Below are positions 44,513 through 64,000 of a DNA stretch of 64,000 bases, piece by piece; the first letter of the stretch is position 1; each line of letters begins with the position of its first letter. Source of the stretch: Utricularia gibba (Eukaryota > Streptophyta > Magnoliopsida > Lamiales > Lentibulariaceae); contig NEEC01000026.1 of assembly GCA_002189035.1 (NCBI GenBank), positions 496,001 to 560,000 on the forward strand, in the 5' to 3' direction. The notes beneath the pieces were generated by a model, which saw only the letters and a list, made by a program, of their open reading frames with translations, had not been told where the DNA came from and did not search any database. Position numbers and translations under genes: made by a program.

Positions 44513-45623
44513 CTAATAAATGATTTTATATCATTCTAAAATATGTTTTTCCATTACTCTTAAAGAGTATTTTTACTTATGTTAGATTTCTTTTTCTCAT
44601 TACTTTCAATTGATTTTGCATCTTTCACACTACTTTGATCTTTTTGGAGAGAAAGTGTATTTTATAAATTTTTAGGGCATTTGTGGATAAATTTGAGGAG
44701 AAATCAAGACCCACGAAATTATGGACTTGATGGACTACAAATCTCAGCCCAAGACTCGATCAAACAATGAAGATTTAATTCAAAATTCGTGGATAAGATA
44801 AAGATATGAAGATGATCTTGGAAGATTTGGATAAAAGATTTGAATAGAAGATCTTATCCAATCCTATCAAACAAGCTCAATACGAAGACTTAGATCTCTC
44901 TCAACCATTAGAGACATCTTTGACCACTTTTCCTATTTTCGTGTCTATTTTCATGTTAGAGTCGAGTATACACGTGTAGGCGCTTGCGGGTGAGGATCTG
45001 CAGTGAAGCCTTGCTTGCGAAAGTCATGCATGTGTAGCTGTTTTACTATGCTTTTCAACATTTAATTTGAGGTTTAATTCTGTTTTTCACCATGTTTTTT
45101 TTACCAACGTGCTCTTTAGTATCACATAACCCGAAGGGAGTGTGAGAAAATCAAAAGTTGGCCTCAAACATCTAAGGAGAAGGTCTCAATCGGACATCGT
45201 TGATAAGACACATTCTATCTAATCTGTCTACGAGGTGTCAAGTGTAGAGGTTAGATTTGGGTGTAGGGAAAATACGAGTTATCACAAGAGGTGAAATGGC
45301 TCTGGTGGTATAGTTGATTCTATAATTCCACTAAACGAGGGATGGTGCGGTCAACGAGTAACACTATTTTAGAATAACACCTCCAGAACTTGCGCAAGCA
45401 GGTCAGTTTTCAAGGTTTACACACACAAGTTTGGGCGAGTTTTAAGCAAGGTAGATCCTAGATCCAAAGCTAATTTTCTTATTGTTTTTAAAACAAAATC
45501 TTTATTTTATTTTTAGTCTTTTTGAGTCTTTGTTTGGAAAGAAAATTCCATTAACAATTCCATGTGCATATGATTTTATTTTATTATTTCGACGGTTTCT
45601 GTTCAGTTGCATAATCACCATCA
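44513..45623 (+). mobile_element. LTR, family D
   Basis: The 5' end is decayed (AATGATTTTATATCATTCT against GTGATTTTGTGTCATTCT). Later blocks are CTACTTTGATCTTTTTGGAG, GTGAAGCCTTGCTTGC, GTATCACATAACCC and TATTTCGACGGTTTCTGTTC, ending AATCACCATCA. It shares all of these with 47029-48222. No pol sequence adjoins. Confidence 0.75.
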
Positions 45624-47028: not shown

Positions 47029-48222
47029 TGATAAGTGATTTTGTGTCACTTATATTTGCGTTTTTTAAGACTAACTTAGATGAGTTTTGTATTCATTTTA
47101 TCCCACTTTACCTATGTTTTTTGAAGAATTTTATATCTTTTATACCACTTTGATCTTTTTGGAGGAAAAGTATGTTTTGTGATTTTTCGAAACAAATTTG
47201 GAATAATTTGGAGGATTTTCGAGTTGATCTTGATGGAGGCAAAGATTTCGTCTATCCAGACGAAGACTCGATCAAAGATTCTCGAATAAGATAAGATTTG
47301 CATCTTATCTTAGAAAATTTGGATCTTATCCTAGAAGATTTGTATCAAATCTTAGAAGATCCGGATAGAAAATTTGATGTGAGCCCATCAAGAAAGCCCG
47401 ACAAGTCCCTACCATTATATAAAGATCCAAATGGAAGATCAAAAGGAGAGTCAGTCAAGTGTAGGTGACCAAAGAGTCAATTTAGGGTTTAGAGTTGAGT
47501 CTAGCATATATTGGATTCATTTCCTTTCGTTTTTCATCAACTTTTGTTGTTTAGAGTCAAGCATGCGCGTGTGAGCGCTTGCGGCTGAGGATCTGCTGTG
47601 AAGCCTTGCTTGCGCAAGTTCTGCACGTGTGACTGTCTTACTATGTTTTACAGTATTTAATTTGAGGTCTGATTCTGTTTTTCGCAATGTTTTCTTTACC
47701 AACGTGATCTTTAGTACCATATAACCCTAATGGAGTATGGTAGAATCAAAGGTTGGCCTCAAGCACCTAAGGAGAAGGGCTCAATCGGACATCATTGGTA
47801 AGACACATTCTGTCTAATCTGTCTGCGAGGTGAGAGGTGTAGGGGTTATATTTGGGTGTGGAGAAAATATGGGTTATCACAAGAGATGAAATGGCTTTGG
47901 TGGCGTGGTTGATTCCATAATCCCACAAAGCAAGGGACGGTGCTATAATGGTTACCAAGTAGTTATATTTTAGTATAACACCCCAAAGCTTGTGCAACCA
48001 TATCAGTTCTCAAGGTTTGCACACATACAAGGGCAAGTTTCAAGTAAGGTGGATCTTAAATCAAATGTCACTTTTCTTATTATCTTCAAAACCAAATCTT
48101 TCTTTTATTTTCAATCTTTTTAAATCTTTGTTTTGAAAAAAAAATTCTAATAACAATTTCATGTGGATACAATCTTATTTTATTACTTCGACGGTTTTTG
48201 TTCACTTGCAAAATCACCATCT
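47029..48222 (+). mobile_element. LTR, family D, best-kept copy
   Basis: It starts TGATAAGTGATTTTGTGTCA and ends near CAAAATCACCATCT. It contains CATTATATAAAG near 47413, a likely TATA region, and GAGGATCTGCTGTGAAGCCT. It matches 44513-45623 directly and 1765-2900 in reverse. It lies 219 bp upstream of the first MUTYH ATG considered. Confidence 0.8.
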
Positions 48223-48440: not shown

Positions 48441-50873
48441 ATGAGAGTCATCCACAGGCCCCCGCTGCCTAATCCATGGCCCACGCTCTCGTCTCCTCCA
48501 CACTTGGCGGAAAGTTTTCATACAACCCTTCAACTCCGACTCACCGGCGTAACTGACCGACGCCTGGGAACACCGGTTGAATTTGTTCTCATTATGAAGA
48601 GATGCATGAAAGCATCTTCTGGAGAAAATGAGTATACGGAGACTGTGGACATCGAAGACCTTAATTTTAACGGGAATGAAGCCGTGGAGATTCGTGCTCG
48701 TTTGCTGGAATGGTACGACCAAAATCGGAGGGACCTTCCTTGGAGAAAACCCATTGCCGCGGGGGAAGATGGGTCTAGTGAAACAAAGGCCTACGCAGTT
48801 TGGGTTTCTGAGATGATGCTTCAGCAGACAAGGGTTCAGACTGTCGTTCAATATTACACTCGATGGATGGAAAAGTGGCCAACCATTCATCATCTTGCTC
48901 TGGCTTCGATTGAGGCATTGCCTTTTATTTTTATTTTTTTGAACTCTTCGTTGAGACGTCTGCTTTGAGTACTTCTGATATTCTTGTTCTCACTTGCTAC
49001 AGGAGGTGAATGAAATGTGGGCAGGCTTAGGCTACTACCGGAGAGCAAGGTTTTTGCTTGAGGTCAGCGTCTAAGTTGCCTGGAACACCATTATTGCTTT
49101 GTTCTAATCGAGATTTGTAGATTTTTTGTGCACCTGGATTCGAGTGGCGACTGGATGTACCATTATGTATTAAAAAGCGAAATCCACGCTTTTGAGATTA
49201 TATTGGCAGTTTGTCATAGTTTAACTACTGATTTTGTGATTGTGCAATACAGCTTGAAAGTTAAGTCCGCCGCATTATGTGGATTCATTCTTTTGATTTT
49301 CCAGTCACATTCCTCAGATTTTACACTGTCCTGAATTTCTTTCACTTCCAAAAGAATGATCACTTATGGGTCGTTTTGCATCTCTTGGATGTTCCTCATC
49401 GACAAGCTATGCTATTTTTGGGGCCTGAGAGCTGCCACTTATGCCAGGGAGCGAAAAAGATTGTTGAAGGTGGGGGTGAGCTCCCGAAAACATCAGCTTC
49501 TCTTTATATGGTAAATGGAATTGGAAAATATACTGCAGGAGCCATTGCATCCATTGCCTTTGGCGAGGTTAGCTCATTGCATTCTGTCCATCCTATTACG
49601 TGAGAGACCTAAACTAGCAATTGTGCTATTCTGACTTTCAGGCAGTCCCCGTCGTTGATGGAAATGTAATCCGGGTGATTGCCAGGTTAAAGGCTATATC
49701 AGACATTCCAAAAGGATCAAGGATACTCAAGAATTTTTGGTGAAATTTTTTTGTCTGTCTGTTTAACTTGTAGACATTTTCAATTAGCTTTTACGGCTGA
49801 ATGTTTTTGGGCGGGTTTGGGGTGCGTGTGTGTTATACAGGAGACTTGCAGGAGAGTTAGTTGATCCAATGAGACCTGGTGATTTCAACCAGGCTATTAT
49901 GGAACTTGGTGCGACAGTATGCACTCCTAGAAATGCCAGCTGCTCCACATGCCCAATATCGCATCAGTGTCGAGCATTATCTCTTGCCATGATGCACGAA
50001 TCCGTGCAAGTGATTGACTACCCTCTGAAAGTACCAAGGGCCAGGCAGCGACATGAGTTCCGTGCAGTTTGTGTCGTGGAAATTGTGGAGGAAGGATCTC
50101 AGTGTGACAGCAGATTCCTTCTTGTGAGGAGACCAGATGAGGGTTTGTTAGCTGGTCTTTGGGAATTCCCATCGGTTCATGTAGAGAAAGAAGCTAAACC
50201 GTCATTGAGAAGAAAGAAGTTGGACGAACATTTGGTTCAGTCATTTGGTCTGGAGAGTGAAAGATCACATGAGATGGTTTCAAGGGATGATGTTGGGGTA
50301 TGCGTGCATGAATTCTCTCACATACATCTTACAATGTATGTAGAGCTCATGATTTTGCACGCAAGAGGTATGATCTCCACTTCTGAGCCGTTTGTATTTT
50401 CTGATGGCATGAGACAAATTGAATTGAAGATTACTTCTTTCCTATGCATATTTCTCATCCTCATATACAGTTACTTGGTTCTCAACTTGGTTTTCTTTCA
50501 AGGTGGAATAGGTGCTTCACACAAAACGAAAGAAGATGGAACTATGATTTGGAAATACGTTGACAGTGGTACTCTTCCCTCGTTAGGGCTGACTTCTGGC
50601 GTGAGAAAGGTGACTCTACTTGTTTTGGAAATACGTTTTCTTTTGGATTTATTTGTAAAATGACACTCGGATTGGCATAGCAAGGTACCCTTGTAGTTGC
50701 TATTTCACTCAATAAAATGGGCATTGCTTCTTCGATCACCTCAATTTCTTATGTGGGATGTGGTGTCGGTGTGGCAGGTCTGCGACATGATTGAGAGATT
50801 CAAGCACCGAGGTTGTGATCCAGCACCAGTCAACACAAGGAAGAAGAAGAGAAGGGAGTTCAGGAGAGTTTAG
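48441..50873 (+). CDS. MUTYH: Adenine DNA glycosylase (MutY homologue)
   Basis: Seven exons: 48441-48914, 49003-49062, 49448-49567, 49642-49739, 49841-50367, 50503-50609 and 50778-50873. Phases agree throughout, giving 493 residues. The enzyme removes adenine opposite 8-oxoguanine in base-excision repair, in nucleus and probably organelles. Visible landmarks are LPWR, catalytic-Glu helix VSEMMLQQTRVQTV, WAGLGYYRRAR, helix-hairpin-helix VNGIGKYTAGAIASIAF, VPVVDGNVIRV with the catalytic Asp, PGDFNQAIMELGA and the C-x6-C-x2-C-x5-C iron-sulfur cluster (VCTPRNASCSTCPISHQC). A Nudix-like C-terminal domain reads FLLVRRPDEGLLAGLWEFPS. A basic tail (RKKKRREFRRV) ends the protein. A later ATG at 48594 would give 442 residues; the upstream 51 codons could be an organelle signal or untranslated. 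Intron 1 begins GC rather than GT (GAG|GCATTG). No defect was seen. Confidence 0.95.
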
Positions 50874-53944: not shown

Positions 53945-54198
53945 ATTTCGACCAGAATGTCTGCACTAGAAGAGGAGATGTTCTGGCCGACATTGATCTA
54001 GCATTGAAGAATAGTGTGGAAAGAGCTACGAGGACCCTGCACTTCACTTTGATCCCTTCTCGGATGAATTGATCTGAGAAGAGCCCGAAAGGGGATTCAA
54101 GGTCCCCGATGGAGTGCCCACATATAATGGGAAGGGAGACCCTATATCTCACGTGACTGATTTCGACACGAGGATGGCTACGGTCCGGCATTCGGAAG
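53945..54198 (+). pseudogene. gag N-terminal part of the outer Tat-type element
   Basis: Plus-strand frames give DPFSDELI, then GFKVPDGVPTYNGKGDPISH and VTDFDTRMATVRHSEV, the usual start of the Tat/Retand gag core. Reading stops at 54198 where the reversed family-A LTR begins, and the expected continuation (LFTCSLQKGAKIWF) is found at 60705. One frameshift lies in the upstream part. Confidence 0.65.
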
Positions 54199-54714
54199 TG
54201 TTAAGGGTGAAAATCGGTATACCGAACTCGACCGATTTTCGGGTTACAAACGGTATCGTTTCTTTCCATCGTCTGCTCAGTTTGATTGGATGAAATGGAA
54301 ATATGCAAGAATTTTTTACGTGGAAACCACCGTGAGGCGCAAAAAATCACGGAGCTGTCGGAGCTCGCCTGAGAAAATATTTACTAAACGGAGATGGTGG
54401 AGAAAGGTATAGATTGAGAAGCTTAGGATCGAATGCCTTCTCCCGTCATGATTCCTTTTATTTATAGGGGAGGCTAGTCTAGCTTATTCCTCACCTCTGC
54501 AGGTGTCGGTTACTTTTGTGCTTTCTATGCGACCCAGCTTTTCAGACATCGGCCGCCTATTCCACCGTGATTCGGCTGCTTTTCAGACTGTGTCAGATGG
54601 CTATCGCTGTCAAATTTCCGACACATATTGGCCTGCTGACTGCGTTATTCTGTCAAGGCTCCTTTTGGCAGCCTTTCAAAATCCGATCATCCCCAACCGA
54701 TTTACCCCCCATCA
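54199..54714 (-). repeat. 3' LTR of the nested element (family A)
   Basis: The plus strand reads TGTTAAGGGTGAAAATCGG ... ACCCCCCATCA. It contains the reversed TATA region (TTTTATTTATAGGGG near 54467). Compared with 60399-60704 it retains about 100 bp near its sense 3' end that the other lacks, and about 75 bp at the outer end. Confidence 0.9.
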
Positions 54715-54726
54715 TTCAGCCCCTCT
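54715..54726 (-). other. Polypurine tract
   Basis: Minus strand AGAGGGGCTGAA directly precedes the 3' LTR (TGATGG...). It marks the plus-strand DNA priming site and supports the minus orientation of the element. Confidence 0.65.
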
Positions 54727-54924
54727 AATTTATCGACATTGACCTTTCCAAGGTAAGTCGATGGATCAAAAATATCACTATATCGATTTCTGGCTTGCCG
54801 CTTTTCATGGGTTAATCTCTAGCCGATTTGTGTGCCACACATTGTCTCCCATGCATGCCACGTCTTTTCCCGCTCATTTTGGGCATCTCGAGCGTTGCGT
54901 CGTTTTGCCTCCCGAGTACTTTCT

Positions 54925-54932
54925 CTATAAAT
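54925..54932 (+). promoter_or_regulatory. TATA-like box of the antisense ORF
   Basis: CTATAAAT is followed by a C/T-rich leader (CGCCTTTCCCGTCACTTCTC), as in plant promoters, on the strand opposite to gag-pol. The equivalent box occurs at 26900. A family-C LTR inserted at 54970 now separates it from the ORF. Confidence 0.5.
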
Positions 54933-54969
54933 GTGCGCCTTTCCCGTCACTTCTCTCCTTTGCTTCCTT

Positions 54970-56288
54970 TGTTAAGTGTCATTTTCTTATTATTTCTTAG
55001 GTTGTTTTCATGTTTAAATGTGATTAGAAGTGTCTAATTAGGAGTCTATAATGTGAGATTTGGGTTTTTATCTAGTTTAGAGTAATTATCCTAAATCTTG
55101 TATTTTATCTATTAATTTTACTAGTTTTAATTGAGTTTTTCTAGAGGCGCACACGTGACAGGAAGTGAGAGAAAGAGGGCATCAGATGGCGACAAATTGG
55201 ATCTTCCCGAGCTGACATTCCCTTGATTTCCGGAAGACTGCAGACGCCTAATCATGAGCCTTGACGTGCAGAACACGGGAGTCTCTGACAGGCGGCATCA
55301 TTAGCAGCGTTAGACGTTGCTTGCAAGTCATCCCAAGTTCAGCAGAATCATAGGGACACGAAAGCTCAGACTCTCAATGAAATTCAGTTCTGTTCAGACA
55401 AGTTTAGTTTATTTTCAGTTTAATTTTTTTCCTTTTGTTTCTCTCTCTAGAGGAATTTTCCTCTAGCTTCTCTCTAGAACCTTGTTTCGTTTTCTTTAGT
55501 TTGTATGGCCGTTCGTGGCTAGAAACTTCTGTTTCTGGGTTGGAACACCACTAGATCTATGTTTCGTTAGCTTATCGTCACATTTTCTCTGAATCCGAAC
55601 GGGTTTCGTATGTCTTCGCGCGACTATGTTGCAGTCTTTCTGTAACAGTCCCCTTGTTCAAGGTTCATGGTTAGCTAATCACTACCCGCGGATTTTGGAG
55701 AGGAGCAAGGTGGAAAGCACCAACTCGAGCCCTTTTGGCAAGAGGAAGACAACGTTTTGAGTGTGGCCGTACTTCAGAATCAATGGACAGGTAGTGACCT
55801 CGTATCTAGACTCATTGGGTCATTGGCAAGACTTGGGCACACGCGCGCAATTCGGCCGTGAGGGTACGCTGGCAGGACCTCTTATTCTCACGTTCGTCCA
55901 AGGAGGAGCAACATCGGGCTATTCCCGTGCCTTCTTGCAAGAGAGTGTAAGGGAGGGTAGACAATTTCTTACTCCTATAATCGAGTACTCGAGAGGACTA
56001 GAGAAGAGTGAAGACGCAACGAACATAGCTGGACAGGATTCCAAACCCCGGAACATTTACTTTATTTAAGGTTCATCGCTTACGTTCATTTTAGTTGTTT
56101 GCTCAAAACCCCTCTCATTCCCTTACTCAAGCTTCATCATCAACGTTTTTCGCACCTTTTACCTTCAAAACCGTTTACAAATCGTGACAGTTGTATTCGG
56201 GGTGCCTCACCTTTCACTCAAAAACAACTCCCTGTGTTCGATACTCAATTCCTGATATTCAATTTTGTTGTGGAAATGACACGCATCA
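54970..56288 (+). mobile_element. LTR, family C, inserted in the nested element
   Basis: It runs from TGTTAAGTGTCATTTTC to GACACGCATCA. No matching 5-bp flanks are seen (TCCTT and ACGGT). It contains a 102-codon open frame (55761-56069) with TFVQGGATSGYSRAFLQESV, shared with the copy at 32729-33103. Because it splits the nested element it is among the youngest layers here. Confidence 0.8.
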
Positions 56289-58452
56289 ACGGTCTAGTGA
56301 GATTGATATCCCCTCTCTCCGCATCCGATACTCAATTCCTGACGAGTATATTGTCTCCCATGCACGGGATACCAAAATCCCTTGGGGGTTAGGTGAGAGC
56401 CCGCTTCTTCCCTTCAGCTTACCGATTCCCATAGCTTATTTTGAAAGCGGTTTACGGTTTCCTCTTCATCCCCTGATCGTCCAATTCCTATATACCATTA
56501 CCGTATCGCTTTATTGCCTCGCCCCTAATTCCATCTTTTGCTTCGCTACATTTTTAGTCTATTCGGCTGGTATGGATCCGGCTATGACTTTAGAGGATTA
56601 CCTCCACCTTTTCAAAATTCCTGTGCGAAAAGTGAAATCCCCCATGGATGGTCGTTCTCATTTCCAGTTCCGCCGATTCGAAGATAACCCTCACTTCATT
56701 GTGAAAGCTCCCGACACCCATCATGATTGGTGGTCCTCCTTTGTCTGGGTGATGCCTCCCTTAGGTTTTTGGTGGAACTTTCCGATTAATCCCCCTAGTC
56801 CCTTCAGAGTGAAACTCTCTGATGTGTATCGATCCTCATCCAAATTTAGAGAGGCTTTGTACGAAAGGCTGAGTCGAGGCTCCTTTTGATTCGAAACTTG
56901 GGCCCTCATGTTTTCGGGTGAATCGATGAAGAAGTCCGGCATTATCGGTCGTTCTCGTGACCCCCATTGGCCAGATATCGTGCCCTCCGAGAGCACTGGT
57001 TTGCCAACTCCTCCTTTTGGCCCTTCTTCGAGTCCCCGACTCATCCCGGTTTCCTCCCCGAATACCCAAAGTGCTCAACCCGTGGCCCCCAAGAAAAAGA
57101 AAAGGGTTAAGGCAATCGTCCATAAACCTTCGAAAAAGCAAGGAGGTAGTTAGGTATTATTTTTCCAACTTTCACATCCGGCTCGATGCCTTACTGCTTT
57201 CCCGATTTTTGTCTTGGAGAATTCGGTGATGGCTCGCTTTTCTGCCGAAATGCAGACGATGCAGGAATTGGAAGCGGTTCCTCCCGTATGGGCTTATCTT
57301 TCACCTATCGGCCACTGCGGGTATTCGACTTTGATTTTTTCCAATTTCCCTTTAAGGTTGATCTGCCTGAGGTCTCTCCGAACACCAGCGATCGCCCTAC
57401 TGAGGAGGATCAAATAACGGGACTCTCCGGGGCTCAGGATCCAACTCTCTCTCCTTCGATCGGAAAGGGAAAAGAAAAGATACCCCCTTCGCCCGATTTC
57501 ACCGAAGCACCGGCTCACGACATAGGGCTCCCTTCGCAGGTGCCTCCACATCGGTTCCCACAATGGAGCATAGGGGGACCCTGCTCCAATAGAGGTAGAA
57601 GACGATCCAGTGCTTCCACCGTCTTCGGTACCGGCCGAATGTTGGATGAAGCCGTGTCGAGTCTTCCGGATGTTCACCCGGAAATAATACTCAAGGGGAT
57701 TTGGTAGGTACTGATCCTTTACCTTCTTAGCATCGTTCATAACACCTTTCCAACTTAGCAGTTTTTTGTTAGGCCTTGACTTTTGGATGGGGATTGGCCA
57801 AGAAAGTCGAGTCTCAACCTGGGGAGGTTGTTCGGCTTCAAAAGCAGGTAGAGGCTCAAGATGCCAAGATCAAGTTTATGGCCGAGGAAGGGAGTTCTCT
57901 GTGGAGTATCTTGGGAAAGCGTGACCGCCAGGAGGAAGAGTTACGGAATGTGATTGACTACGCCCAATCTGAGAGGGAAGGCTTCAAGGTTAGACTCGAA
58001 GAGACAGAAGTCGAATTAAACGAGGCCAGAGATCGCATCGCGACTTTGGTGGCCGACTTATTAAATCGGGAGGCATCTCGGCAAAACCTTCTGGATGATT
58101 TCGTCAACTCAGCATGCTTTTCGTAGTTTTCCGATATCTACGCGAGGGACCTGATCGGTTTGCTCCTCTATCGGCAAAAGCGTAAAATCAGCCGAGAATT
58201 TGGGCTACGATCATAGACCCGCGTTTTGACAGGGTCGATCCCTTGAGGAAAGACGAGAACATGCAAGATGTTATCGCCGATGTGTACCCAGCTCCTGAAT
58301 TTGGATCCGAAGCAGAGCGGGAACGACTGATAGCACTCATCCAGGCGAGAATCGGACGAGAGAACGAGGCCAAGCTACGAGCGAGGCTTCGGGGGCAAAT
58401 TGGCCCCTCGGTCGGTTCTAACAACGATCCTTCTCCTCCGCCTGAAATTTAA
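56289..58452 (+). pseudogene. Antisense ORF of the Tat element (PF04195-like, coiled-coil tail)
   Basis: The plus-strand ORF lies opposite to the element's gag-pol. The first block (56400-56889) holds the 'putative gypsy type transposon' domain: YFESGLRFPLHPLIVQFLYT, GMDPAMTLEDYLHLFKI and WWSSFVWVMPPLGFWW. Following blocks in other frames are GRSRDPHWPDIVPSE to PKKKKRVKAIVHKP (56908-57153, ending basic), an acidic Pro/Ser-rich region ending PEIILKGIW (57186-57707), a coiled coil with VRLQKQVEAQDAKIKFMAEE and LEETEVELNEARDRI (57776-58126), and a final charged block (58243-58452). Intron-like joins are plausible, for example before the coiled coil. The function of this protein is unknown. Decay is milder than in the neighbouring remnants. 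Confidence 0.65.
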
Positions 58453-59559: not shown

Positions 59560-60395
59560 GACCAAGAGGGTACCGAATTTAGCAAGAACCTGCGATAAGG
59601 ATTGGTATTGAACCGGTTGAGCGTAGAATCTCCTCATATGGGACGCATTCCATAATCTCAAAAACTCCACGCCATCTAATCATTCTAGACGATAAGCCCC
59701 CTTTTTCGATTACGCTCAAAATCCGATAAGGGGCCTCTCCAACTGCGATCTAGTTTGCCTACATGCCTTTGTGGCTGGATGTTTCGGAGCACCAGATCTC
59801 CTTCCGAGAATTCCCTTGAGGATACCGACTTGTCGTAACTCTTTTCTATTCTTTCCGGATGAGCCCCTAGTCAGCCATGAATATTCTGCCGTTTTTCTTC
59901 CAGTAATTCCAACTCCTGTTTTCGTAACAGAGCGTTATCCTCCTTGTTGCAGTGTTCCACCCCAATCCAACAGGACTGCCCACGACCCTCCGAAACCTTT
60001 GAGTTTGGCTTTCATTCATTCTCTGATGTTTATTCAAGAGGGCATCCATTCTCCCTGTCCATTCCTGGCTCCTGAATGATTTGGTTTCTATGTCCGGGGA
60101 ATATTCTGGAATCAAGGGTTGCTTTTTCACTTGTCGTACAGTTTCCGGTGTCCCCTCCTATGCTTTGAAGTTCAGGCCCGAGGGTGCCCTAAAGTCGGGG
60201 AGGATTTCCGTCACCAGGGGGGACCTCTAACTGCTCCCTGCTGTTGGCCATAAGACTGGGGTTTTGCATGCCGGTGCTCCCTTCGTGGACAGAATTCGCG
60301 GCCGTTTCATTTCCTCCCGTGGTTGATGTTTGGTGAGCGACCTCTATGGATTTCTCGAGTGGGACTGTGGAACGTGGCCCCATGGTGGGCGCCAA
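59560..60395 (-). pseudogene. gag start fused by deletion to integrase C-terminus
   Basis: From 60371 the minus strand reads a gag-like start (MGPRSTVPLEKSIEVAHQTS) through a Ser/Thr/Asn-rich leader and, after a frame change, EWTGRMDALLNKHQRMNESQ. From about 59955 it becomes the integrase C-terminal part: LLRKQELELLEEKRQ, then KSYDKSVSSREFSEGDLVLR and GKLDRSWRGP, with GAYRLE and the W-N-ASHMRRFY tail near 59630. All of gag core, protease, reverse transcriptase, RNase H and the integrase core is missing. Several stops are present. Confidence 0.75.
60378..60394 (-). other. Primer binding site
   Basis: Minus strand TGGCGCCCACCATGGGG begins 5 bases after the LTR end (TTAACA|TTTTT). TGGCGCC-type sites are typical of plant Ty3/gypsy elements. 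The priming tRNA is not identified here. Confidence 0.8.
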
Positions 60396-60398
60396 AAA

Positions 60399-60704
60399 TG
60401 TTAAGGGCGAAAATCGGTATACCGGATTGGAAACCACCGTGAGGCGGAAAAACCACGGAGCTGTCGGAGCTCGCCGGAGAAAATGTTTACTAAACGAAGA
60501 TGATGGAGAAAGGTACATATTGGGAGGCTTGGGATCGAATGCCTTTTCCCGTGATTCGGCTACTTTTGTGCCTGCTATGCGACCCTGCTTTTCATACATC
60601 AGCCGCCTGTTCCACCGTGCTTCGGTTGCTTTTCAGATTGTGTCAGACGGCCATCGCTGTCAAATTTCTGACACATATCGGCCTGCTGGCTGGCGTTATT
60701 CTGT
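60399..60704 (-). repeat. 5' LTR of the nested element (family A), doubly deleted
   Basis: The plus strand begins TGTTAAGGGCGAAAATCGG and matches 54199-54714, but lacks about 100 bp after ACCGGATTGG and the terminal 75 bp. Homology stops at GCGTTATTCTGT (60704) and gag of the outer element resumes. Confidence 0.85.
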
Positions 60705-63700
60705 AAGTTGTTTACTTGTTCACTTCAGAAGGGAGCCAAGATCTGGTTCAAACCGTTAGAGCAATGCAGCGTGGGATCCTATCGGGAGTTGGTGCTACTC
60801 TTCACCACTCAATATGCTGTTAATATCAAAGCCCCACCCTCAAAGGCAGCGTTGTATTCCATTCGGTACGACCACAGAAGAGAAAGCTTAAGGAAATTCA
60901 TTGACCGATTCAACTGTCTGGCACATACGTCCAGCTGGATTTGAAGGAAAGGGTAGAAATAATGAAGCGGGCCTTGGGAACATCAAAGCTGGGTCAAAGT
61001 CTATCTAAATCGCCACCGAAGAATCTCGGAGAATTGTTACGGAAAATCATGAAGTACATCCAAGTTGTCGACGATCTCAGAGCCGAGATGAAAAGCTGCA
61101 TAGAGATCCGCCCGGCCTCACACCAAGAAGTGCAACCTATCTGGCCCCTCGACCGAATAAACGCCGTGAAGTATATCAGGTGGAACCAACCAGAACCAAG
61201 GCCTATTGCGAAATAAATAAAACCATGGGACACGACACCATCAACTGCTGAATAATGAAGAGGATGATCAAGCAATATCATACTGGTGGCGGAATGAGCA
61301 ACGCAATATGGAATCCCACACAGACGACGGAACGAAAAAGGGGACATAGCGGACAGACGGGAAGCGAGGGCAGTCGATACTCGAAGTTCCCCCCGAAACC
61401 AACAGGAGGAATCCGGCGAGCTAGTGAAGTCTCAAACCATGAAGGGGACCAAGATTGACCGGAAAGTTCAAGAGAGGCGAACCGAGAGCAAGGATATGCG
61501 GGAGCACCAAGGTGACGAGGATCCTCATCGATCAGGGGTCTTCCTGCAACATTATGAAAAGGGAAGTTGCCGAGCTACTGGCGTCCTCTAAAGAGGGGAT
61601 ATCCGCCTGGTCCGTATGGAGTTATACGCATTCGATCAACGGGCTATGCAAACTGTTGGGAAAATAAGCCTACCCGTGATGTTCGGTGCGGCAGGGCGAA
61701 GCCGAACCGAATGATTAGAATTCCTTATCCTAGATTCGGAAGTCTTGTATAACGTGATCCTCGACCGACCCGACATCAACCAATTCGGTGTGCTACCCTC
61801 AACAGTGCACTTGAAAGTGAAATTCCCAACATCTAGGGGAATCTACATGCTAGATATCGACCAATCAGCCGCTTAGTCTTGTTATGTGTTCTCTTGCTGC
61901 GACCCCTGCACAAAGAAACCAAGAGTAATGGTGGTGGAGAAGGAACCCCGGGAACCTCCCAGGCGAGCCATGGAACCAGTGGGGTATAAATCCTTGCAGC
62001 TCATACCGGGAGATACACATAAGGCGACCTGCATTGGCACCAACTTGAACGCCGAGTTTGAAAAAAGGTTAGGGGAAACCCTAAGGAATAATGCCGATAT
62101 TTTCGCCTAGACTGCTGCAGATTTTGTAGGAATCGATCGATCTGTCGATGAGCATCACATCGATACCTATTCGGGGGCAAAGCCGATTCGGCAAAAGCAG
62201 CGGCACTTCTCTGAAGAAAAATGCCGAATCATCAAGGAGAAAACAAAAGAGCTTCTGGAAGCCGGTTACGTGAGGGAAATCCAATACTCGGAATGGGTAG
62301 CCAACCCGATCGTGGTCCCCAAACCCAGGGGAAAATGGAGAATGTGTGTCGATTTCACCGATCTCAACGCTTGTTGCGAAAGGGATTCCTATCCCTTACC
62401 AAAGATAGACAAGTTGGTGGACGCCATTGCCAGGTCCCGTTTCCTGAGCACCATGGATGCCTACTCTGGGTATCACCAAATTTTCATCGCGGAAAAGGAC
62501 CATCCAAAAACAACCTTCTACACCAAAGACGGGGTTTACTGATGGGGTGACCTATCAGAGATTGGTAAACAAAATCTTTTCCTCCGAGATCGGAACTTCA
62601 ATGGAGGTGTATGTGTACGATATGATCGTTAAGTCAATGAATGAAGAGGATCATTTGGCATATTTGACCTCCTGTTTTTCCTTGTGTCAGTCATACGGAT
62701 TAAACCTCAACTCATTGAAATGTTGCTTCGGAGTGCAAAGTGGAAAATCCCTTGGACACTAGAGGGATCGAAGCTGACCTCGAGAAGATTAAGGCGATAT
62801 GTGAAATGCAACCCGCATGGAACATAAAGGAATACCAAAGCCTTACGGGTAAACTGGCAGCCCTCAGCCGTTTCATATCGCGGTCAGCCGACAAGTCGCG
62901 TCTTTCTTCAAGGCATTGAGAAAGGGAAATGCATTAGAATGGAACAAAGACTGTCAAGTCGCTTTCGAGAAGCTCAAAGAATATCTCTTCTTGCCTCCGC
63001 TTCTAGTTGCCCTGAGGGAAGGGGAGCCCCTAGGGCTCTACCTGTCAATATCCCCCGTTGCGGTAAGTGCAGTTCTGACAACTATCTCGGGAGATAAACA
63101 CTTGCCAGTGTATTATGTGAGCAAGGTCTTGCTGCCAGCTGAAACTTGATACGCAGTGATAGAGAAGTTCATCTTGGCTCTAAAAATAGCGGCCACCAAG
63201 CTCCGATCATATTTCCAGGATCAACACATCGTGGTATTCACTAATCAGCCCCTGAAGAGTATCCTATCTTGACCAGAGATTTCTGGGGGGTCGCAAAATG
63301 GGCGGTCGAATTGAGCACGATGGATATCGAGTTTAAATCGAGAACATCAATCAAGGCCCAACCACTTGCCGACTTCGTGGTCGAAATGACCCGGCCTATT
63401 GACCATGTATGTTGACGGTTCAACATGCAATGGGGCTGGAGGAGGCATAGACATATGGACTCTGGATGGGAACACATTTATATCATGGTAAAATTCTTGT
63501 TCCCCGCCTCCAACAACGTGGCCGAATATGAAGCCCTGGTAGAAGGAATGAAAATTTCCAGGGAGCTCGAAGTCGCGGAACTTTCAAGGAGTTCACCTAA
63601 TCCCATGTTGCGCAAGAAGAAAACGGACCCGTGGATAGTCTCTCCAAGTTCGCCGCAGGGTTTGACAGTCTGGTTGCAGGGTTCACCGTCAGTAACCTTG

Positions 63701-64000
63701 CGGGCAGTGAATCACATTACTCAGCAACCAGGGAACGACATCTCATCGCAACTGAACCTTTTCGAGGATTGGACATTACCCTATATTCGATACCTTCAAA
63801 GAGGAGAAACACCACCCAAAAAATCGGAAGCCAGACGGTTGGAGGCCAGAGCGAAGAGATATACGCTGGTGAACGGGAATCTTTATCGCAGATCCCTTGA
63901 CGGACCCCTATTGAAGTGTATAGGGAAGGAGCACTCTCAAGAGCTTATAACTGACTTGCATGTGGGAGAGTGTGGCGCTCATGTTGGCGTGCGATCCTTA
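60705..64000 (+). pseudogene. gag-pol of the outer Tat-type Ty3/gypsy element, runs off the right edge
   Basis: Order of domains: gag core (LFTCSLQKGAKIWFKPL, SVGSYRELVLLFTTQYA, 60711-60950), a zinc-knuckle remnant (MGHDTINC, near 61225), protease (VTRILIDQGSSCNIM, 61515) and reverse transcriptase (YSEWVANPIVVPKPRGKWRM, 62284; LSTMDAYSGYHQIFI, 62440). The catalytic YVDD-like box reads EVYVYDMIVKS near 62607, so the first Asp is replaced by Tyr. RNase H follows (WNKDCQVAFEKLKEYLF, 62941; RSYFQDQHIVVFTNQPLKSI, 63206), then a second plant-type RNase H (TMYVDGSTCNGAGGGI, 63400) and the integrase zinc-binding start (YTLVNGNLYRRSLDGPLLKC, 63862, with HVGECGAH at 63959). Frameshifts and stops are frequent, for example at 62541. 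The double RNase H is characteristic of the Tat lineage. The element is inactive. Confidence 0.88.

Follow-up and report, generated by a model that had tools for sequence, protein, structure and literature searches.

The feature under study lies in a window of 64,000 nucleotides (the whole stretch of DNA that was analysed) and is very probably a dead Ty3/gypsy copy of the Retand type (Tat clade) carrying the remnant of an antisense accessory gene; this high confidence concerns the identification of the gene and excludes its function. The gene, with a PF04195 (Transposase_28) domain, is located on the plus strand, opposite the element's own genes and beside its 3' LTR. An antisense PF04195 ORF between pol and the 3' LTR is a hallmark of the Retand lineage and is found in the window element; the element has lost both RT, whose phylogeny defines Retand members, and aRH, the archaeal-type RNase H that marks the Tat clade, and its assignment to the lineage is based on the antisense TRP28 gene together with the ends of pol in relatives. 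What the window holds is a pseudogene, carried by a dead element from which most of gag-pol has been deleted. The family comparison comprised about 24 gene copies from the same genome (assembly of 100.09 Mb, 516 contigs), and, judged on the genome-wide copies, the signals of a gene exceed chance.

The inserted element and its host

The minus-strand element spans 54199 to about 60707 (Table 1). Paired TG...CA LTRs with adjoining PBS and PPT identify it as an LTR retrotransposon, and its orientation, proposed in the initial annotation, is borne out by the LTRs, the polypurine tract, the PBS-like site, the gag start and the C-terminus of the integrase. The length of the left LTR was set at 516 bp because solo copies elsewhere in the genome, which match only positions 3-516 of the query, stop there. 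The LTR pair shows 89.3% identity over 308 sites (K2P 0.118); no target-site duplication is seen at the inserted element, the outer edge of the right LTR being truncated. The PPT-like tract adjoining the left LTR, TTCAGCCCCTCT on the plus strand, is locally conserved among relatives, with a pairwise identity of 0.72 versus about 0.6 in its surroundings. Of gag, the inserted element has retained nothing beyond the start; its pol has been largely deleted, with loss of RT, RH and the greater part of the integrase.

Table 1. Features of the inserted element and of its antisense gene, in window positions.
Feature	Positions	Strand	Basis
3' LTR (left copy, 516 bp, TG...CA)	54199-54714	-	direct repeat with right copy
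Polypurine tract, AGAGGGGCTGAA in minus-strand reading	54715-54726	-	sequence
Conserved putative core-promoter block of the antisense gene	54853-54969	+	alignment with distant copies
TATA box CTATAAAT	54925-54932	+	TATAAR position conserved in relatives
Insertion of a foreign, high-copy repeat unit of about 1.28 kb into the leader of the gene	54970 to about 56245		junctions versus L032-L034
Remnant of exon 1, coding for the TRP28 module and its conserved WWSSFVWVxPP motif	56290-57145	+	PF04195, dN/dS, alignment A1
PF04195 Transposase_28 domain	56434-56619	+	28.3 bits, E 2e-4 for one genome
Basic, NLS-like block PKKKKRVKAIVHKPSKKQ towards the 3' end of exon 1	57088-57142	+	sequence; conserved in family members
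Intron A remnant; donor retained, acceptor deleted	57146-57212	+	comparison with relatives
Exon 2 remnant: variable linker, frameshifted, terminating TAG 57705-57707	57213-57707	+	comparison with relatives
Intron B, 65 nt	57708-57772	+	18 modelled relatives
Exon 3 remnant; TAA at 58450, internal TAG 58124-58126 and frame change	57773-58452	+	dN/dS, heptad pattern
Coiled coil in exon 3	57773-58123	+	heptad pattern, shuffle p = 0.006
Conserved C-terminal segment of exon 3	58207-58449	+	dN/dS
End of pol (integrase C-terminus), convergent with the antisense gene	59852-59582	-	tblastn to at least 12 family copies
gag N-terminal start	60383-60192	-	sequence and translation
PBS-like site, TGGCGCC..., read from 60394 downwards beside the right LTR	60378-60394	-	sequence
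5' LTR (right copy), outer edge truncated	60399-60707	-	direct repeat with left copy

The element is inserted in gag of a related element on the plus strand; the pieces of this gag are located at 54078-54197 and 60705-60941, and the second piece gives a PF03732 match of 35.7 bits. The RT of the interrupted element is found at 62111-62542, and over 99 residues its integrase region shares 75% identity with the pol end of one relative of the family, L045. Judging by this likeness, the target of the insertion was a member of the same lineage as the inserted element. The interrupted element (gag, RT and integrase region; 60705-63988 to the right of the insertion) is itself riddled with stops. An aRH-like stretch can be recognised in it by eye at 63390-63580, where Pfam gave no match. 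Upstream of the two elements, plus-strand pieces at 48441-50663 resemble a gene for an adenine glycosylase of the MutY type (NUDIX_4, 52.5 bits). The window also contains a 300-bp direct repeat, 85% identical, at 44956-45255 and 47551-47850.

The antisense gene in the window and in its family

The initial annotation had described a long plus-strand ORF with a PF04195-like domain and a coiled-coil tail. The domain stands: the genome search gave a plus-strand match of 28.3 bits, above the curated cut-off of 26.2 bits, a borderline score, as the isolated ORF reached 26.0 bits, just below that cut-off. Elsewhere in the genome PF04195 exceeds the cut-off at no fewer than 129 places, and other subfamilies reach 47.9 bits. 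The single long ORF does not stand. It is ruled out by stops and introns, the domain, the basic block and the coiled coil being distributed over separate exons in three frames; the longest plus-strand frame of the gene, of 233 codons, is terminated by TGA 56887-56889, which together with the TAG triplets of exons 2 and 3 makes up the three stops. The basic block and the heptad-patterned coiled coil noted earlier are both present at the positions given in Table 1, and both are conserved across the family.

An intact gene is not what the window holds, since the ATG has been lost, stops have accumulated, the acceptor of intron A has been deleted and a foreign repeat occupies the leader, where it separates the promoter from the gene. 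Among the copies scored, about 40 near-complete genome copies of this repeat are 87-95% identical; about 230 bp of the leader present in relatives are absent from the window copy. Part of the same repeat also adjoins the gene copy in L059, and a solo LTR is one candidate class for it. Most family copies, the window copy included, carry stops, and some have open exons.

Alignment of the family maps two introns, of 73 and 65 nt, with conserved GT and AG borders. The donor GT of intron A is present in all 24 aligned relatives and its acceptor AG in 20 of the 23 that are readable, with a length of 73 nt in 13 of 18; for intron B, GT is found in 17 and AG in all of the 18 modelled relatives, and 14 of these have the 65-nt length. 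A genome-wide search with the pattern of the exon 2/intron B junction returned 40 intron-containing matches, the window included, versus none for the exon-joined form. The exon-joined pattern of intron A gave six imperfect matches, none of them at family loci, and the test for intron loss rests on intron B for this reason. Exon-joined copies are not expected if new copies are templated by the sense genomic RNA, since introns in antisense orientation cannot be removed from it by splicing.

In 12 or more relatives the TRP28 gene and the end of pol face each other tail to tail (3' to 3') on opposite strands (the extracted relatives extend only as far as the pol end), and in L037, L043, L044 and L045 this opposite-strand pol end is open. 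Such recurrence marks the antisense arrangement as a trait of the family and no accident of the window copy.

Selection was assessed by pairwise Nei-Gojobori dN/dS. The ratio near 1 named in the initial annotation as speaking against the gene is not what exon 1 gives in the claimed frame, where the median over 297 copy pairs is 0.128 (interquartile range 0.10-0.17) versus 1.3 and 1.4 in the shifted plus frames and 1.2 and 1.6 in two minus frames; with synonymous sites near saturation (median dS 1.2) these figures are rough, and the contrast between frames is clear. The minus frame that shares third positions with the claimed one gives 0.21. For exon 3 the in-frame values are 0.130 in the coiled coil and 0.172 in the tail, and the out-of-frame ones about 0.9-1.5; the linker exon 2 is weakly constrained. 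A sliding scan along the family finds strong constraint only in exons 1 and 3, with about 0.65-1.0 in the leader and the downstream DNA. Substitution patterns of this kind show codon-level purifying selection on the antisense frame in the family.

The TATA box and C/T-rich leader pointed out by the initial annotation are present, and the TATA is conserved in position across relatives: 17 of 23 copies have TATAAA or TATAAG at 253-289 bp upstream of the ATG, versus a mean of 0.57 and a maximum of 4 in 500 rounds with shuffled segments. The block of about 120 bp around it is the sole stretch between LTR and gene that can be aligned in the distant copies L038, L039 and L043, and identity is raised at about -365 to -281 relative to the start codon of L033. 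A donor-like CAG|GTA site in the leader of 13 of the 23 copies (0.17 expected) suggests a further intron there. Judged by this comparison of copies, the antisense gene would have its own promoter and be spliced.

Proposed product, its role and alternative readings

According to the reading favoured here, transcription in the family would start from a TATA promoter that belongs to the gene and adjoins the 3' LTR on its internal side, and would run through the C/T-rich leader, probably with its leader intron. The body of the gene would consist of exon 1 (TRP28 and basic block), the 73-nt intron, the linker exon, the 65-nt intron and exon 3, ending with the coiled coil and the conserved tail, tail-to-tail with pol. 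RNA polymerase II would transcribe the antisense strand into a distinct mRNA that is then spliced, and the introns would persist through transposition because genomic RNA holds only their complement. The protein, of roughly 680 residues, may form coiled-coil multimers that act in the nucleus on chromatin or on the DNA of the element, and may help the element in trans.

The predicted product comprises, in order, TRP28, the basic block PKKKKRV, a variable linker, the coiled coil and the conserved tail. We take the basic block to resemble the SV40 signal. The TRP28 module reaches past the Pfam model, which has 69 residues, as far as a WW(S/T)SFVWVxPP motif, common to subfamilies that are just 20-28% identical. 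A first AlphaFold model, of the family exon 1 (alignment A1), was poor (pLDDT 54.8), and a Foldseek search with it gave no match. The second, built on a broader TRP28 alignment, was good for residues 1-150 (blocks mostly 74-93, pTM 0.74); searched with Foldseek against PDB and viral libraries, it gave no match below an E of about 0.8, its best VIA-align hit, an ORC chain with Z 2.7, was at noise level, and a profile search of PDB sequences gave no match. These negative searches do not prove a new fold. In line with the arguments of Vicient (PMC11963269, PMC7264820), the product would most likely be a nuclear, multimeric accessory protein associated with DNA or chromatin, a binding role that the initial annotation had suggested from the basic block and the coiled coil. 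As to what it does, regulation or anti-silencing is the most likely role, put forward tentatively, and import or targeting of the preintegration complex comes next.

Antisense transcription could instead matter as RNA, pairing with genomic RNA and feeding small RNAs that regulate the element, a role proposed in a review (PMC7264820) as compatible with that of a protein. As the main explanation this is improbable, for third positions vary where the protein is kept, and this in one frame only and in exons only; splice sites are conserved, and gene and pol converge without overlap, so that an RNA overlap would need read-through. Introns, a promoter signal of its own and the opposite orientation also make the gene resemble a captured one, be it a fragment of a host or foreign gene in a single copy or an unrelated gene hit by a retrotransposon. 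This is very unlikely, and for the family it is refuted by copy number and conserved position, since over 20 diverged copies have the same gene at one and the same place with respect to the LTR and the end of pol; moreover, PF04195 was not found outside transposable elements according to PMC11963269. Chance ORFs with a chance TATA in decayed repeat DNA, suggested by a frame broken at several places within the window, are refuted at the family level by a dN/dS of 0.13 with its frame controls, by the TATA count against the shuffled maximum and by a PF04195 score above the cut-off, which leaves them a negligible probability.

Codon selection in one frame, introns that make sense only in the antisense direction and a conserved TATA together argue that antisense TRP28 genes are independently transcribed, spliced and translated.

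Other subfamilies and known Retand genes

The genome has about five further TRP28 subfamilies, whose identity to the window family is roughly 20-28%. They have a donor-like G|GTAA 91-97 nt past the WW motif, and several of them an acceptor-like AG directly before the ATG. Loci with such signs of splice sites are L002, L004, L006, L014, L016, L020, L022-L025, L028 and L030. Three groups have a charged, coiled-coil-like frame downstream; in the other subfamilies the heptad test was mostly not significant and the coding scans were too noisy for the mapping of exons. Since signs of splice sites are seen on either side of the TRP28 exon in several of these subfamilies, a spliced gene throughout the lineage is a fair hypothesis: the chances are about even that the antisense TRP28 ORF and the separate antisense coiled-coil (Smc-like) ORF of Retand elements belong, as exons, to a single ancient gene that is spliced and has a promoter of its own. 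If this is true, a retroelement could carry an intron-bearing gene indefinitely because the gene is antisense to the genomic RNA.

That additional antisense ORFs occur in Tat elements, as partly pointed out in the initial annotation, is established knowledge (PMC11963269, PMC7264820), and an antisense TRP28 gene with its own promoter belongs to an already known kind. Antisense TRP28 genes were found in 97% of Retand clusters, as a characteristic of the lineage, and some clusters also have antisense coiled-coil (Smc-like) ORFs; the TRP28 proteins of Retand elements were predicted to bind DNA (Vicient 2025, PMC11963269). In an earlier survey Transposase_28 was reported in 23% of Retand elements (Neumann et al. 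2019). Nearly every Retand element with recent activity has an antisense TRP28 gene. The window gene is like those of PMC11963269 in its PF04195 domain, its antisense orientation and its position between pol and the 3' LTR; unlike them, it has decayed to a pseudogene, and its element has lost most of gag-pol.

Maize Grande gene23 is described in a review (PMC7264820) as antisense, with its own promoter and a nuclear product. By that description it resembles the window gene as an antisense gene in the 3' internal region, a likeness drawn from the description; promoter and nuclear product are reported for gene23, whereas their putative counterparts here, the conserved TATA with its block and the NLS-like block, are read from the DNA. 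Silene Retand ORF4, antisense and with a Transposase_28 domain, is a likeness of the same descriptive sort in a different plant, and its expression is reported as weak and ubiquitous (Kejnovsky et al. 2006, through PMC7264820).

No mention of a spliced gene joining TRP28 and a coiled coil was found in the literature considered, in which Grande is covered through a review. In PMC11963269 the ORFs are listed singly and introns are unmentioned, whereas here TRP28, the basic block and the coiled coil appear as exons of one gene. The intron map points to spliced antisense mRNAs and to one larger protein instead of separate short ORFs. What is new relative to the known systems is one predicted spliced gene that unites the TRP28 domain, the NLS-like block and the coiled coil under codon-level selection.
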